64,000 bases of DNA from Afipia sp. OHSU_II-C1 (GTDB lineage: Bacteria; Pseudomonadota; Alphaproteobacteria; Rhizobiales; Xanthobacteraceae): assembly GCF_000497575.1 (NCBI RefSeq), contig NZ_APJI01000004.1, positions 1-64,000 on the forward strand, in the 5' to 3' direction. Below the pieces are notes generated by a model that saw nothing but the letters and a program-made list of their open reading frames with translations, was not told the DNA's origin and did not search any database. Position 1 is the stretch's first letter, and each line of letters starts with the position of its first letter. Positions 54,050-60,425 of the stretch are shown here, one piece after another. A program made the position numbers and the translations under genes.

Positions 54050-55318
54050 ATGAGCGAGCCAGTTCGGACCCCACCTTTCGCGCCATTCGAATGGATGCTG
54101 TCGACCCGCTATCTGCGGGCGCGCCGCAAGGAAGGCTTCATTTCCGTCATCGCCGGCTTTTCGTTTCTCGGCATCATGCTCGGGGTGGCGACGCTCATCA
54201 TTGTGATGGCGGTGATGAACGGCTTCCGCAAGGAACTGCTCGACAAGATTCTCGGTTTGAACGGCCATATCGTTGTCCAGCCGCTTGAATCGCCGCTGAC
54301 CGACTGGAAGGACGTGGCCGAGCGCATCAGCAAGGCCGACGGCATCCGCCTCGCGGCGCCGGTGGTCGACGGACAGGGCCTCGGCTCGTCGCCGTTCAAT
54401 GCCGCGGGCGTCTTCATCCGGGGCATCCGCGCACAGGATCTCAACGCCGTCACGTCGATCGCCAAGAACATCAAGCAGGGCACGCTCGAAGGGTTCGACG
54501 AAGGTCAGGGCGTCGCCATCGGCCGCCGGCTGGCCGACCAGTTGTCGCTGCGGGCCGGGGATAGCATCACGCTGGTTTCCCCGCGCGGCGCGGTCACGCC
54601 GATGGGCACGACGCCGCGCATCAAGCCTTACAAGGTGGCGGCGGTGTTCGAGATCGGTATGTCGGAATACGACGCGTCGTTCGTGTTCATGCCGCTGACG
54701 GAAGCTCAGGCCTATTTCAACCGCGCCAATGACGTTACCGCCATCGAGGTCTTTACGACCAACCCCGACAGGATCGACGTCTTCCGCAAGTCGGTGACGG
54801 AGGCGGCGCAGCGGCCGATCTTCCTTGTCGACTGGCGGCAGCGCAATTCCACGTTCTTCAATGCGCTGCAGGTCGAGCGCAACGTCATGTTCCTGATCCT
54901 GACGCTGATCGTGCTGGTGGCGGCGCTGAACATTGTCTCAGGCCTGATCATGCTGGTGAAGGACAAGGGCCAGGACATCGCGATCCTGCGCACCATGGGC
55001 GCGTCGCAGGGTTCGGTGATGCGGGTGTTTCTGATTACCGGAGCTGCTATCGGCGTGGTGGGCACGCTTGTGGGCTTCCTGCTGGGACTGGTGATCTGTC
55101 TCAACATCGAGACCATCCGGCAGTTCATCTCCTGGATGACCAACACCGAACTGTTCTCGCCCGAGCTTTACTTCCTCTCCAAGCTTCCGGCTGAAGTCGA
55201 TGTCGGAGAGACCGCCGCGGTGGTGATCATGGCATTGACGCTGTCGTTCCTGGCGACGCTGTACCCCTCATGGCGGGCGGCGCGTCTCGATCCTATCGAA
55301 GCGCTCAGGTACGAATGA
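54050..55318 (+). CDS. lolC: Lipoprotein-releasing ABC transporter permease LolC/E, 422 aa
   Basis: Inner-membrane permease that releases mature lipoproteins to LolA. One TM helix at about 28-50, a large periplasmic MacB-like domain (about 60-270), then three TM helices in the C-terminal FtsX domain, with the ending [15 protein letters not shown]. Alphaproteobacteria usually have a single LolC/E-type protein (also called LolF) working as a homodimer. It overlaps lolD by 4 bp. Confidence 0.94.
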
Positions 55319-56025
55319 GCGCACAGATGGAGCAGGGGGAAAATGGCGTTCCGGTCGTTTATCTGCACGACGTCCGCAGGCGCTACAAACAGGGCGAAGC
55401 CACGCTGACCATTCTCGACGGCGCCAGTCTGGCGCTGTGGGAGGGGCAGTCCGTTGCGCTGGTCGCGCCGTCGGGCACCGGCAAATCGACGCTGCTCCAT
55501 ATCGCCGGTCTGCTGGAGCAGGCCGACGAGGGCGAGGTCTATGTCGGCGGCACCGCGACCTCGGGGCTGTCCGACGTTGAGCGGACGCAGATCCGCCGCA
55601 CCGATATCGGGTTCGTCTACCAGTCCCACCGGCTGTTGCCGGAGTTCTCGGCGCTTGAGAACGTGATGATGCCGCAGATGATCCGCGGCCTGCCGAAAAA
55701 GGAAACCGTGAAGCGGTCGAAGGAAATCCTGGCCTATCTCGGATTGGCGGAACGCGTGACCCACCGGCCGGCGGAGTTATCGGGGGGCGAGCAGCAGCGC
55801 GTGGCGATTGCGCGCGCGGTGGCCAACGCGCCTCGGGTCCTGCTCGCGGATGAGCCGACGGGAAATCTCGATCCGCATACCGCGGATCATGTCTTCAAAG
55901 CTTTGACCCAGTTGGTGCGGGCGACGCGCGTCGCGATGCTGATCGCGACGCACAATATGGATCTGGCTGCGCGGATGGATCGCCGAGTTTCGCTCCAGGA
56001 CGGTCACGTCATCGAGCTCGACTGA
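55315..56025 (+). CDS. lolD: Lipoprotein-releasing ABC transporter ATPase LolD, 236 aa
   Basis: ATP-binding subunit of the Lol release complex. Walker A SGTGKST, signature [14 protein letters not shown], Walker [12 protein letters not shown], and the late H-loop ATHN are present. Start on the lolC stop (ATGA). It ends convergent to the DUF3551 gene. Confidence 0.95.
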
Positions 56026-56035
56026 ACCCGGCAGC

Positions 56036-56305
56036 TCAGTAGTACGGCCGCGGTGCAGGGCGGCGGCGCGGCTGATAGACCCGCTCTTCGTCATACACGT
56101 AGTACGGATTGGCGTAGCAGCCAGCGTAGGTCCCTGCCGCCGTGGCCTGGCACTGCTGATAGGTCGCAAAGCTGCAATCGCCCTGGCCGGTGGAGATGTC
56201 GCGGCCCTGAAGGCAGAACGGATAATTTCCCCCGGCTTCCGCAGGAGCGGACTGGACGGCGAAGCCGGCGCCGAGCACGGCGAGGGCCAAAAGGTAGCTG
56301 CGCAT
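56036..56305 (-). CDS. DUF3551 small secreted protein, 89 aa
   Basis: Signal peptide 1-24 (AEAG), then a short mature domain with four cysteines (PFCLQG, GDCSFATYQQC, GCYANP) and a tail of Pro, Arg and Tyr (YQPRRRPAPRPYY). DUF3551 is nearly restricted to Bradyrhizobiaceae, where it comes in many copies; no function is known. The start follows AGGAGA. Confidence 0.88.
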   Translation of the reverse strand: MRSYLLALAVLGAGFAVQSAPAEAGGNYPFCLQGRDISTGQGDCSFATYQQCQATAAGTYAGCYANPYYVYDEERVYQPRRRPAPRPYY

Positions 56306-56498
56306 GGTGTTCTCCTGCCGGGTCGATCCCCGGATTTCTTGGTGGTGAAGCCAGACCGTTTCCAGCTGCGTCCGTCAACTCACGTTACTGCGTAGCTGTT
56401 GATGGATTTACGAAAGTCGCGGGCCGTTTACGTTTCGTTAGCATTGCTCTTCAGGGCGGATTCCCGACCCTTGACTCTGAGAACAAAAAAGGAACAAT

Positions 56499-56513
56499 GT
56501 TCTTATTACGTTC
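56499..56513 (+). promoter_or_regulatory. LexA (SOS) box before a membrane microprotein gene
   Basis: GTTCTTATTACGTTC matches the alphaproteobacterial LexA consensus GTTC-N7-GTTC exactly. A TTGACT -35 word lies at 56471-56476, so LexA bound here would cover the -10 or start region. The box ends 37 bp before the microprotein ATG. An overlapping GAACAATGTTC palindrome (56492-56502) adds symmetry. Confidence 0.7.
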
Positions 56514-56550
56514 TCATAGAGTCGATAGAGCGTCGATAGGGAGTTCGGTC

Positions 56551-56649
56551 ATGTTGAAGACATTCGTTGAAGAAGCTGCTGCGCTGACCTCGGTTGTGCT
56601 TTTCGTCGGAATGATTGCGATCTGGGCGCAGGTCATTCCTCAGATGTAG
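56551..56649 (+). CDS. SOS-linked membrane microprotein, 32 aa
   Basis: Very short frame beginning with ATG at 56551, with AGGGAG placed 7 bp upstream. It has an acidic N-terminus (FVEEAAALT), one hydrophobic helix (about residues 11-28, with VVLFVGMIAIW) and a short polar end (PQM). A perfect LexA box lies just upstream. In Caulobacter the SOS-induced SidA, a 29-aa inner-membrane protein, blocks division; this one resembles it in size, topology and control, but homology is not shown. The gap to dnaE (192 bp) has a GC hairpin without T-run. Confidence 0.62.
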   Translation: MLKTFVEEAAALTSVVLFVGMIAIWAQVIPQM

Positions 56650-56841
56650 GAACTTGCCGGCCCCGGAACAGCCGGGGCTGGGGAAAACGATGATGGACCC
56701 GGCATTGTCGGACGGGTCCGCGTCTTCTGCGTGGACACCCATAGTACAAGGCACCACCATCGACGTTTAATGAGTCGTTCTTTTATCGCAGTCGGTTCAT
56801 TGGTTCGATGAATCAGACCTGCGAAGGTTGCCAGGGTCCGT

Positions 56842-59800
56842 ATGTCCAAAACCGCTTCGCCGAAGTCGTCCGCACTCGATCCCGGATTCGTGCATCTGCA
56901 CGTGCAGTCGGCCTATTCGCTGCTGCAGGGGTCGATGACCATCGGTAAGCTGCTGGAACTGGCCAAGGCTGACCATCAGCCTGCGCTGGCGCTGACCGAC
57001 AATGACAACATGTTCGGCGCGCTGGAATTTTCCGACAAACTCGCCGGTTACGGCATCCAGCCGATTACCGGCTGCGCGATGACAACCGATTTCGGCGATC
57101 AGGATCCGAGTGCGCGTAATGCACTGGCGCCGGCGCGGCTCGTTCTCCTCGCAACCAGCGAGGACGGCTACCGTAGCCTGATGAAACTGAACTCCCGTGC
57201 GTTCCTGGAAACACCGGTCAACGAGACCCCGCACATCAAGATCGCGTGGCTGGACGGCGAGAGCGCCGGACTGATCGCGTTGACCGGCGGACCGGAAGGG
57301 CCGATCGGGCAGGCCATCAACGCGGACCAGCCCGCATTGGCGCAGGCGCGCTGCGACATCCTCGCGAAACTGTTTGGCGACCGCCTCTACATCGAATTGC
57401 AACGGCACGGACTTGAGAGCGAGCGCCGCGTCGAGCCTGCGCTGATCGACATGGCCTATGCCATGGGTCTGCCGCTGGTCGCTACCAACCAGCCGTACTT
57501 CGCCACCGCCGACGACTACGAGGCGCACGACGCGCTGCTCTGTATCGCAGGCGGGCGGCTGGTGTCGGAAACCGACCGCGATCAGCTGACGCCGGATCAC
57601 CGTTTCAAGACGCGCGCCGAGATGGCTGTGCTGTTTGCCGATCTGCCCGAGGCGCTGGCGTCCACCGTCGAGATCGCGCGGCGCTGCGCGTTTCGTCCCA
57701 AGACGCGCAAGCCGATCCTGCCGCGCTTTACGGTGGCAAGCGATAACTCGGCTGATGGCGAAGGCGGCGAGGCCGAGGAACTGCGCCGTCAGGCCGAGGA
57801 CGGCCTGGCCTGGCGTCTGCAAAAGTATGGTCTTGCTCCGGGCACCACGGAAGAAGACTACGCAAAGCGTCTGGCGTTCGAGATCGACGTCATCACACGC
57901 ATGAAATATCCCGGCTACTTCCTGATCGTGTCGGACTTCATCAAGTGGGCGAAGTCGCACGGCATTCCGGTGGGGCCGGGCCGTGGTTCGGGCGCGGGTT
58001 CGCTGGTGGCCTATGCACTCACCATCACCGATCTCGATCCGATCCGGTTCGGCCTGCTGTTCGAGCGCTTCCTCAATCCGGAGCGTGTCTCGATGCCGGA
58101 CTTCGACATCGACTTCTGTCAGGACCGCCGCGGCGAGGTGATCCGCTATGTGCAGGAGCGCTACGGCCGCGAGCAGGTCGGGCAGATCATCACGTTCGGT
58201 ACCTTGCAGGCGCGCGGCGTGCTGCGCGACGTTGGTCGCGTGTTGCAGATGCCCTACGGACAGGTGGACCGGCTCACCAAGCTGGTGCCGCAAAATCCGG
58301 CGGCGCCCGTGACCCTCGCGAAGGCCATCGAAAGCGAACCCAAGCTGCAGGCGTTTCGCGACGAGGACCCCGTCATCGCGCGCGCGTTCGATATCGCGCA
58401 GCGCCTCGAAGGTTTGACGCGTCACGCCTCGACCCACGCGGCGGGCATCGTGATTGGGGACCGGCCGCTTTCCGAACTGGTCCCGATGTATCGCGATCCG
58501 AAATCGGACATGCCGGTCACCCAGTTCAACATGAAATGGGTCGAGCCTGCGGGCCTCGTGAAGTTCGACTTCCTTGGCCTCAAGACTTTGACGGTTCTCG
58601 ATGTGGCGGTGAAACTGCTCAAGCAGCGCAATACGGATGTCGATCTGGCGCATCTGCCGCTCGACGACAAGAAAAGCTACGAGATGCTGGCGCGCGGCGA
58701 AGTGGTCGGCGTGTTCCAGGTTGAAAGTCAGGGCATGCGGCGCGCGCTGGTCGACATGCGGCCGGACCGGCTGGAGGACCTGATCGCGCTGGTGGCGCTC
58801 TATCGTCCCGGTCCGATGGCGAACATCCCGACCTATTGCGCGCGCAAGCACGGCGACGAAGAGTCGGACTACATGCATCCGATGCTCGAGCCGATCCTGA
58901 AGGAGACCTTCGGCGTCATCATCTATCAGGAACAGGTGATGCAGATCGCGCAGGTGATGGCGGGCTATTCGCTCGGCGACGCCGACCTGCTGCGCCGCGC
59001 GATGGGCAAGAAGATTCGCGCGGAAATGGACAAGCAGCGCGAGATCTTTGTCGCCGGCGCGACCAAGAACAGCGTGCCGAAGGGGCAGGCGCAGACGATC
59101 TTCGAACTGCTCGCAAAGTTCGCGGACTACGGCTTCAACAAGAGCCACGCGGCGGCCTACGCACTGGTGTCGTTCCAGACCGCCTACATGAAGGCGCATT
59201 ATCCGGTGGAGTTCATTGCGGCGTCGATGACGCTCGACATGAACAACACCGACAAGCTGTCCGAATTCCGCGCAGAAGCGCAGCGGCTCGGCATCAAGGT
59301 CGAACCGCCGTCGATCAATCGCTCGGGCGCGACATTCGAGGTCAGCGAGAACACGATCTATTACGCGCTCGCCGCGCTCAAGGGTGTCGGCCAGCAGGCT
59401 GTCGAGATGATTGTGGAAGCGCGGGGCGACCGGCCCTTTACCTCGCTTGCCGATTTCGCCTCCCGCGTCAGCCCGCGCGCGATCAACAAGCGTGTGGTGG
59501 AAAGCCTTGCGGCGGCGGGTGCATTCGACACCATCGACGCCAACCGCGCGCGCGTGTTCGCCGGCGCCGATGCCATCGTCGCGGCCTGCCAGCGCAGCCA
59601 CGAAGCCGCCACCAGCGGTCAGAACGACATGTTCGGCGGCATGGCGGATGCGCCGAGCATCGTGCTTCCGAATCTCGAGCCATGGCTGCCGGCAGACCGG
59701 CTGCGCCGCGAATACGACGCCATCGGCTTTTTCCTGTCGGGTCATCCGCTGGACGATTATTCCGCCGCGCTGAAGCGTCTGCGGGTGCAATCCTGGACCG

Positions 59801-60369
59801 AGTTCTCGCGCGCGGTGAAGACCGGCGCGACCGCGGGGCGCGTTGCCGCGACGGTGGTGTCGCGGATGGAGCGCCGCACCAAGACCGGCAACAAGATGGG
59901 CATTATCGGACTGTCGGACCCGACCGGACATTTCGAGGCCGTTCTGTTCTCGGAAGGGCTTGCGCAATACCGGGACGTGCTTGAACCGGGTTCGGCGGTT
60001 TTGATGCAGATCGGCGCGGAGTTGCAGGGCGAGGATGTGCGCGCGCGGATTCTGCACGCCGAGCCGCTCGACGATGCCGCCGCCAAAACCCAGAAGGGTC
60101 TGCGCATCTTCGTGCGCGACGACAAGCCGCTGGAGTCGATCGCCAAGCGTCTGGAAGGTCATCAGGCCGCGGCCGGCGGGGGCAACAAGCTCCAGCCGGC
60201 GAGGGCCTCATCCGGGCCGCCCACGGGCGACGGCGAGGTCACGCTGATCATGATGCTCGATCTTCAGACCGAGGTCGAAATGAAGCTGCCGGGCAAGTTC
60301 AAGGTGTCGCCCCAGATCGCCGGCGCGCTTAAGGCGGTTGCCGGCGTGGTGGATGTGCAAACGATCTGA
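56842..60369 (+). CDS. dnaE: DNA polymerase III alpha subunit (replicative), 1175 aa
   Basis: Catalytic subunit of the replicative polymerase. N-terminal PHP domain (HLHVQSAYSLLQG near residue 18), polymerase core with the catalytic Asp pair in PDFDIDFC and the GRGSGAGSLVAYAL motif, fingers, tandem HhH with AAYALVSFQTAY nearby, and C-terminal OB fold (GRVAATVVSR, KMGIIGLSDPTG). Length and PHP features fit DnaE1, not the error-prone DnaE2, and no imuA/imuB lies next to it. It is flanked by two LexA-box genes. Confidence 0.95.
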   Translation: MSKTASPKSSALDPGFVHLHVQSAYSLLQGSMTIGKLLELAKADHQPALALTDNDNMFGALEFSDKLAGYGIQPITGCAMTTDFGDQDPSARNALAPARLVLLATSEDGYRSLMKLNSRAFLETPVNETPHIKIAWLDGESAGLIALTGGPEGPIGQAINADQPALAQARCDILAKLFGDRLYIELQRHGLESERRVEPALIDMAYAMGLPLVATNQPYFATADDYEAHDALLCIAGGRLVSETDRDQLTPDHRFKTRAEMAVLFADLPEALASTVEIARRCAFRPKTRKPILPRFTVASDNSADGEGGEAEELRRQAEDGLAWRLQKYGLAPGTTEEDYAKRLAFEIDVITRMKYPGYFLIVSDFIKWAKSHGIPVGPGRGSGAGSLVAYALTITDLDPIRFGLLFERFLNPERVSMPDFDIDFCQDRRGEVIRYVQERYGREQVGQIITFGTLQARGVLRDVGRVLQMPYGQVDRLTKLVPQNPAAPVTLAKAIESEPKLQAFRDEDPVIARAFDIAQRLEGLTRHASTHAAGIVIGDRPLSELVPMYRDPKSDMPVTQFNMKWVEPAGLVKFDFLGLKTLTVLDVAVKLLKQRNTDVDLAHLPLDDKKSYEMLARGEVVGVFQVESQGMRRALVDMRPDRLEDLIALVALYRPGPMANIPTYCARKHGDEESDYMHPMLEPILKETFGVIIYQEQVMQIAQVMAGYSLGDADLLRRAMGKKIRAEMDKQREIFVAGATKNSVPKGQAQTIFELLAKFADYGFNKSHAAAYALVSFQTAYMKAHYPVEFIAASMTLDMNNTDKLSEFRAEAQRLGIKVEPPSINRSGATFEVSENTIYYALAALKGVGQQAVEMIVEARGDRPFTSLADFASRVSPRAINKRVVESLAAAGAFDTIDANRARVFAGADAIVAACQRSHEAATSGQNDMFGGMADAPSIVLPNLEPWLPADRLRREYDAIGFFLSGHPLDDYSAALKRLRVQSWTEFSRAVKTGATAGRVAATVVSRMERRTKTGNKMGIIGLSDPTGHFEAVLFSEGLAQYRDVLEPGSAVLMQIGAELQGEDVRARILHAEPLDDAAAKTQKGLRIFVRDDKPLESIAKRLEGHQAAAGGGNKLQPARASSGPPTGDGEVTLIMMLDLQTEVEMKLPGKFKVSPQIAGALKAVAGVVDVQTI

Positions 60370-60410: not shown

Positions 60411-60425
60411 GTTCAAACAATGTTC
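60411..60425 (+). promoter_or_regulatory. LexA (SOS) box before the pseudo-caspase gene
   Basis: GTTCAAACAATGTTC is a perfect GTTC-N7-GTTC. It lies 42 bp after the dnaE stop and 48 bp before the chosen start of the caspase-fold gene, in promoter position. It is the second perfect box in 4 kb, both in intergenic DNA and in the same orientation. No certain -35/-10 pair is seen. Confidence 0.62.

Follow-up and report, generated by a model that had tools for sequence, protein, structure and literature searches.

A 32-codon frame directly upstream of dnaE in Afipia sp. OHSU_II-C1 very probably encodes an unannotated homolog of the Caulobacter division inhibitor SidA, which lies in the same genomic place and would arrest septation at FtsW during the SOS response. 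Genome comparison established four features of this locus, namely coding selection on the frame, conservation of its LexA boxes and promoter, its position before dnaE and the similarity of its product to SidA. LexA binding, membrane insertion, the FtsW target and division arrest are expected from SidA and from general knowledge. SOS-induced one-helix division inhibitors are a kind already known; this member has no match in Pfam or NCBIfam at E ≤ 10.

The microprotein frame and its regulatory region

The window, the 64,000-nucleotide stretch analysed here (contig NZ_APJI01000004.1, positions 1 to 64,000), carries the frame on the forward strand at 56551..56649, with an ATG at 56551 and a TAG at 56649, and the predicted product is MLKTFVEEAAALTSVVLFVGMIAIWAQVIPQM (32 aa). 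A preliminary description of this DNA had claimed a good ribosome-binding site and a single-helix frame of 32 residues, and both were recovered. By sequence, AGGGAG (56538..56543, + strand) lies 7 nt 5' of the ATG, and hydropathy analysis gives one hydrophobic stretch, the most hydrophobic 19-residue window being residues 11–29 (mean Kyte–Doolittle 2.2), a size and topology shared with SidA in the wide sense (~30 residues). The reading frame is open 5' of the ATG as far as 56053, and since stop-to-stop frames among strong matches range from 36 to 236 aa, relatives have only the 32-codon unit in common.

The gene for the DNA polymerase III alpha subunit, dnaE1 (56842..60369, + strand; TIGR00594 and Pfam domains), starts 192 bp past the microprotein stop. 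Upstream on the same strand are a permease frame (54050..55318) and an ABC ATPase gene extending up to 56025 (PF00005), which we take to be of the LolC/E and LolD types, respectively. A gene for a DUF3551 protein on the opposite strand (56036..56305; PF12071) separates the ATPase gene from the microprotein. Behind the frame, a strong hairpin with no T-run occupies 56654..56684 (+ strand; z −3.3, with 1 of 200 shuffles as good), and of 44 loci at family level 14 have a z under −2; the hairpin is possibly a partial terminator, and SOS-driven read-through into dnaE is likewise possible. As the preliminary description suggested, the SOS response might couple division arrest and replication at this place, which Caulobacter shares, although 192 bp and the hairpin lie between the two genes here. 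Between 56680 and 56770 the non-coding strings cTGGGGAAAA and GTGGAC recur in many close relatives with no conserved frame and may belong to the promoter or the leader of dnaE. A short frame after the hairpin (beginning MMDPAL) was rejected because it is not conserved as a frame.

A promoter-like element, TTGACT (−35, 56471–56476) and AACAAT (−10, 56493–56498) separated by 16 nt, spans 56471..56498 on the + strand and was the sole one detected by the sequence scan within 56020–56900 (shuffles mean 0.3). The perfect LexA box of the preliminary description was borne out (GTTCTTATTACGTTC, 56499..56513), and a second perfect box was found beyond that claim. The latter, box 1 (GAACAAAAAAGGAAC in + strand letters, 56481..56495), lies between the −35 and −10 elements and is conserved; box 2 is inverted relative to it across a 3-bp spacer. 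Single GTTCN7GTTC sites are not rare: the window holds four against an expectation of 2.5, and the genome holds 166 on both strands against 97 of the reversed control pattern. The exact inverted pair occurs at one place in the 5.08-Mb genome, upstream of the microprotein; allowing 2 mismatches adds one further place, and the reversed control pattern likewise occurs once with up to 2 mismatches. Among family-level loci, the inverted pair with its 3-bp spacer is conserved in 41 of 43, and TTGAC/T stands immediately 5' of box 1 in all 41 family loci having the pair. The genome contains lexA, itself preceded at 147 bp by such a box, and the same motif is described as the LexA box of Caulobacter in a passage of PMC12700426.

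In the family designated f42 (seven loci, peptides of 27–31 aa), the second half of the box is altered (GAACAAAACAAATAC and similar) where it runs into a −10 resembling TACATAAT, which may reflect a trade-off of the LexA site against the promoter. On the far side of dnaE, a further LexA-type box (GTTCAAACAATGTTC, 60411..60425) lies between dnaE and a caspase-domain frame (60420/60480–62813; PF00656); SOS-controlled genes may therefore flank dnaE on both sides. This box is perfect in 12 of the 16 relatives fetched and carries one mismatch in three of the other four.

Selection and conservation across the family, the order and beyond

Codon-level conservation, which the preliminary description had named as a point on which its proposal would stand or fall, is evident among close relatives. 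Across 34 loci, pN/pS was 0.249 in the frame, the two alternative frames giving 1.10 and 2.99, and stop codons interrupt the frame in none of these loci but occur in 32 and 15 loci in the other frames. By these substitution patterns, the 32-codon frame is a gene under codon-level selection. A protein search of 61 genomes recovered the peptide in 26 of 29 own-genus genomes (E ≤ 1.0e-9), the remaining three being only 83–84% complete, and in six of eight further family genomes (E ≤ 3.4e-4). One relative carries the peptide–dnaE locus twice, on two contigs, so that either the locus is duplicated or the assembly is mixed (completeness 92%, contamination 4%, 680 contigs). A second peptide-like match in a sister genome was rejected because the box is absent.

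A profile of 14 peptides was searched against 247 genomes of the order and matched in 159 at E ≤ 1, many of these matches being chance. The resulting order set comprises 104 loci (102 distinct places, two of them fetched twice), composed of 35 from the protein search of 61 genomes and a further 69 from the profile search, the latter one per genome. These loci were selected by peptide match, two chance-level matches lacking box or dnaE were excluded and 12 of 52 weaker matches were passed over by eye, so that proportions hold for the examined loci only. A perfect box lies within 160 bp in 94 of the 104, and nine of the ten loci without one carry a box with an altered second half; with the 166 boxes counted genome-wide for the window's organism, one is expected by chance in ~0.5% of such stretches. 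dnaE follows in the same direction in 103 of the 104 loci, the distance from frame start to dnaE start ranging from 142 to 747 bp. The search of relatives that the preliminary description had proposed, for the peptide with an upstream GTTC-N7-GTTC, thus returned a box that is conserved at both family and order level, and the position directly upstream of dnaE claimed for the window holds throughout nearly the whole set.

Outside the order, the distribution is sparser. At E ≤ 0.3, the order profile matched in 71 of the 290 genomes of a class-wide search, for the most part by chance, and five of the 16 matches inspected have box, frame and dnaE. dnaE-upstream stretches were also inspected in 60 genomes representing 60 further families of the class (from 79 dnaE places; two stretches were shorter than 300 bp). 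A perfect box is present in 11 of them, and in eight of these 11 a ribosome-binding site and a short ORF for a hydrophobic product come after it (six by filter, two by eye); the same ORF filter also passed ORFs in four box-less regions, three of which resemble permease gene ends. One additional family has three genomes with box, frame and dnaE, and nine sampled families outside the order, Caulobacteraceae among them, have related peptides. Because most of the 60 further-family genomes show nothing, either the distribution is patchy or divergence has carried members past the criteria applied. As judged from these comparisons, related one-helix peptides of 27–38 aa occur at dnaE across the order and also outside it, and Phe18 and Trp25 are invariant among the 36 representative order peptides, which span that same length range.

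Relation to SidA of Caulobacter

Caulobacteraceae genomes were recognised through CtrA and PopZ, and one of them, G632, was taken as C. vibrioides because its PopZ is 100% identical to the C. crescentus protein. G632 contains a 29-aa ORF that scores 72.4 bits with the NCBI SidA model NF033228 (cut-off 35), ends 35 bp before the dnaE ATG (32 bp before an in-frame GTG) and is flanked on its other side by a nucleoside hydrolase gene (PF01156, E 1e-78). In published tags, as given in passages of the respective sources, sidA is CCNA_02004 (PMC10769358), CCNA_02005 is an inosine-uridine nucleoside hydrolase (PMC3667746) and dnaE is CC1926 (PMC1839093), and this three-gene order of nucleoside hydrolase, sidA and dnaE is recovered in G632. 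Homology by position, a check suggested in the preliminary description, accordingly finds the Caulobacter ORF adjoining dnaE as well. A motif search for a nucleoside hydrolase near sidA in loci L211–L340 gave none.

A search of Caulobacteraceae gave matches at E ≤ 1 in 69 of 79 genomes. In a set of 80 loci, nearly all Caulobacter, Brevundimonas, Phenylobacterium or Caulobacteraceae, 66 ORFs are exactly 29 aa long and the others 30 or 31, and the dnaE start is visible in 76. A perfect box lies within 150 bp in 64 of the 80 and in 33 of 50 loci of another set; its absence from 16 and 17 loci, respectively, means that not every Caulobacteraceae locus shows one. Genome G333 has a 29-aa ORF with two boxes upstream of dnaE. 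In Caulobacter segnis, Lol-type permease and ATPase frames were seen by eye 5' of sidA, with other genes intervening.

Sequence similarity was assessed in both directions. A profile of 13 Caulobacteraceae peptides scored the window peptide at 14.7 bits, a value reached by none of 200 of its own shuffles. The 36 order peptides had a median of 7.6 bits against 0.9 for shuffles, and 20 of them outscored 95% of their own shuffles; among all 7,200 shuffles the 99th percentile was 8.0 and the maximum 17.7, above the score of the window peptide. When 94 short hydrophobic ORFs outside Caulobacteraceae were ranked, places 1–36 were held by dnaE-upstream family peptides, the best unrelated ORF reaching 6.3 bits. 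In the converse test, 14 of 14 peptides passed the 5% level, that of C. vibrioides being the weakest among those listed (7.2 bits, 3%). Profile–profile comparison (hhalign) against Caulobacteraceae gave a probability of 84 (E 7.7e-6) for the order and 40 (E 3e-4) for the closer family. The similarity spans ~25 hydrophobic residues with the common core A-L-x-S-x-x-x-F, and the conserved Trp stands at Phe+7 in order peptides and at Phe+2 in Caulobacteraceae.

The NCBI equivalog model NF033228 leaves the window peptide unmatched, with no hit at E ≤ 1 in its own genome, which places the peptide strictly outside the NCBI equivalog family. The model matches one of the 36 order peptides, weakly (E 0.067), against 13 of 13 Caulobacteraceae peptides, and its cut-off is passed in one of 290 class genomes; two Brevundimonas-type relatives at the sidA place, G333 and G489, likewise miss it with 18.1 and 21.4 bits. 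Taken together, the comparisons support a homology between SidA and the window peptide that is weak but real, and the peptide is probably to be filed as a SidA homolog in the same genomic place. The SidA-like design seen in the preliminary description would then reflect descent, given the place of Caulobacter SidA directly upstream of dnaE and the weak sequence similarity. The two loci (SidA: CCNA_02004, NF033228) share a position upstream of dnaE1, a LexA box, a product of ~30 residues with one hydrophobic helix, the core motif and ABC/permease genes of Lol type further 5'. They differ in that the window peptide has 32 rather than 29 residues, lies under the NCBI cut-off and carries its Trp at Phe+7 instead of Phe+2, while the window locus has an inverted double LexA box and 192 rather than 35 bp to dnaE.

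Proposed function and alternative readings

LexA bound to the back-to-back boxes would hide the promoter and the likely transcription start, box 1 covering the promoter spacer and part of the −10 and box 2 the likely start, and would keep the gene off; a double site should give tight repression. On DNA damage, RecA would promote self-cleavage of LexA, opening the promoter for synthesis of the 32-residue peptide, which would enter the inner membrane as a single helix, its N-terminus probably inside, as Lys3 weakly suggests. By analogy with SidA, the peptide would act on FtsW and keep the septal wall-synthesis complex FtsW/FtsI/FtsN inactive, the cell elongating without dividing until LexA returns. 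For SidA itself, passages of PMC4211646 give the length, the action on FtsW and activity of the protein when overproduced from a plasmid, and a 2026 paper reports a model, of low confidence, that puts SidA on helix TM7 of FtsW (PMC13396833).

As single GTTCN7GTTC sites are common by chance, the frame might follow a LexA box by accident, a reading that codon-level selection, the box pair and order-wide conservation refute and whose probability we regard as negligible. Nor is it at all likely that the frame controls dnaE, as a translated leader or a short frame 5' of it, with the LexA boxes serving dnaE. Such a role would fit the presence of dnaE as the next gene in 103 of 104 order loci, the gap of just 35 bp in the C. 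vibrioides-like genome and the hairpin behind the frame in the window; against it stand the selection that acts on the residues of the hydrophobic helix, the 142–747 bp range of frame start to dnaE start, the restriction of z < −2 hairpins to just 14 of 44 loci and, in Caulobacter, a sidA product that is active as a protein (PMC4211646, in the passage on plasmid overproduction).

A diverged SOS membrane peptide with another target deserves more weight, although we consider it unlikely. The peptide could be a depolarising, toxin-like product that slows metabolism, as TisB and DinQ do, or it could regulate some other membrane protein. TisB and DinQ of E. coli are SOS-induced one-helix toxins under antisense RNA control, and the peptide equals TisB/DinQ-like peptides in size and design, fails the NCBI SidA equivalog cut-off and has its Trp at a position unlike that of SidA. 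The place before dnaE is nevertheless common with SidA and the similarity exceeds that of controls, and whereas the E. coli toxins have their antisense RNAs, Rfam, which covers known RNA families, gave no match in 56000–57000. Division arrest through FtsW, as in SidA, is the reading that we favour.

Other small membrane inhibitors were compared by description. DidA of Caulobacter, a 71-aa one-helix division inhibitor that is induced by damage and acts on FtsW/I/N according to a passage of PMC4211646, differs from the window peptide in being SOS-independent (DriD), longer and encoded elsewhere in the genome. The Gram-positive YneA, SosA, ChiZ and DivS are similar as SOS-induced small membrane division inhibitors, and yneA, divS and chiZ are termed unrelated to SidA in the same source, likewise in a passage. 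In the literature searched, outside which the primary 2011 SidA paper lies, no report was recognised on SidA outside Caulobacter or on the width of the family, and nothing surfaced on an SOS division stop in alphaproteobacteria outside Caulobacter.

A broader scenario, which we put forward tentatively and hold to be doubtful, is that SidA, far from being peculiar to Caulobacter, represents an SOS checkpoint that is ancestral in the Alphaproteobacteria and tied to dnaE. The dnaE gene of the window's lineage would then lie in an SOS island, flanked on one side by a SidA homolog whose LexA operator is doubled and inverted and on the other by a caspase-domain gene with its own conserved LexA-type box, such that damage would act from both sides of the replicase gene to arrest division and possibly to start a programme of death or of envelope change.

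The conserved, unannotated, dnaE-linked microprotein provides one candidate SOS division-stop gene per genome, and because the NF033228 cut-off is passed in so few of the sampled class genomes, most of the family members seen here would escape annotation. With so many variants in nature, the family could be of use in mapping the control of FtsW by a 30-residue helix.
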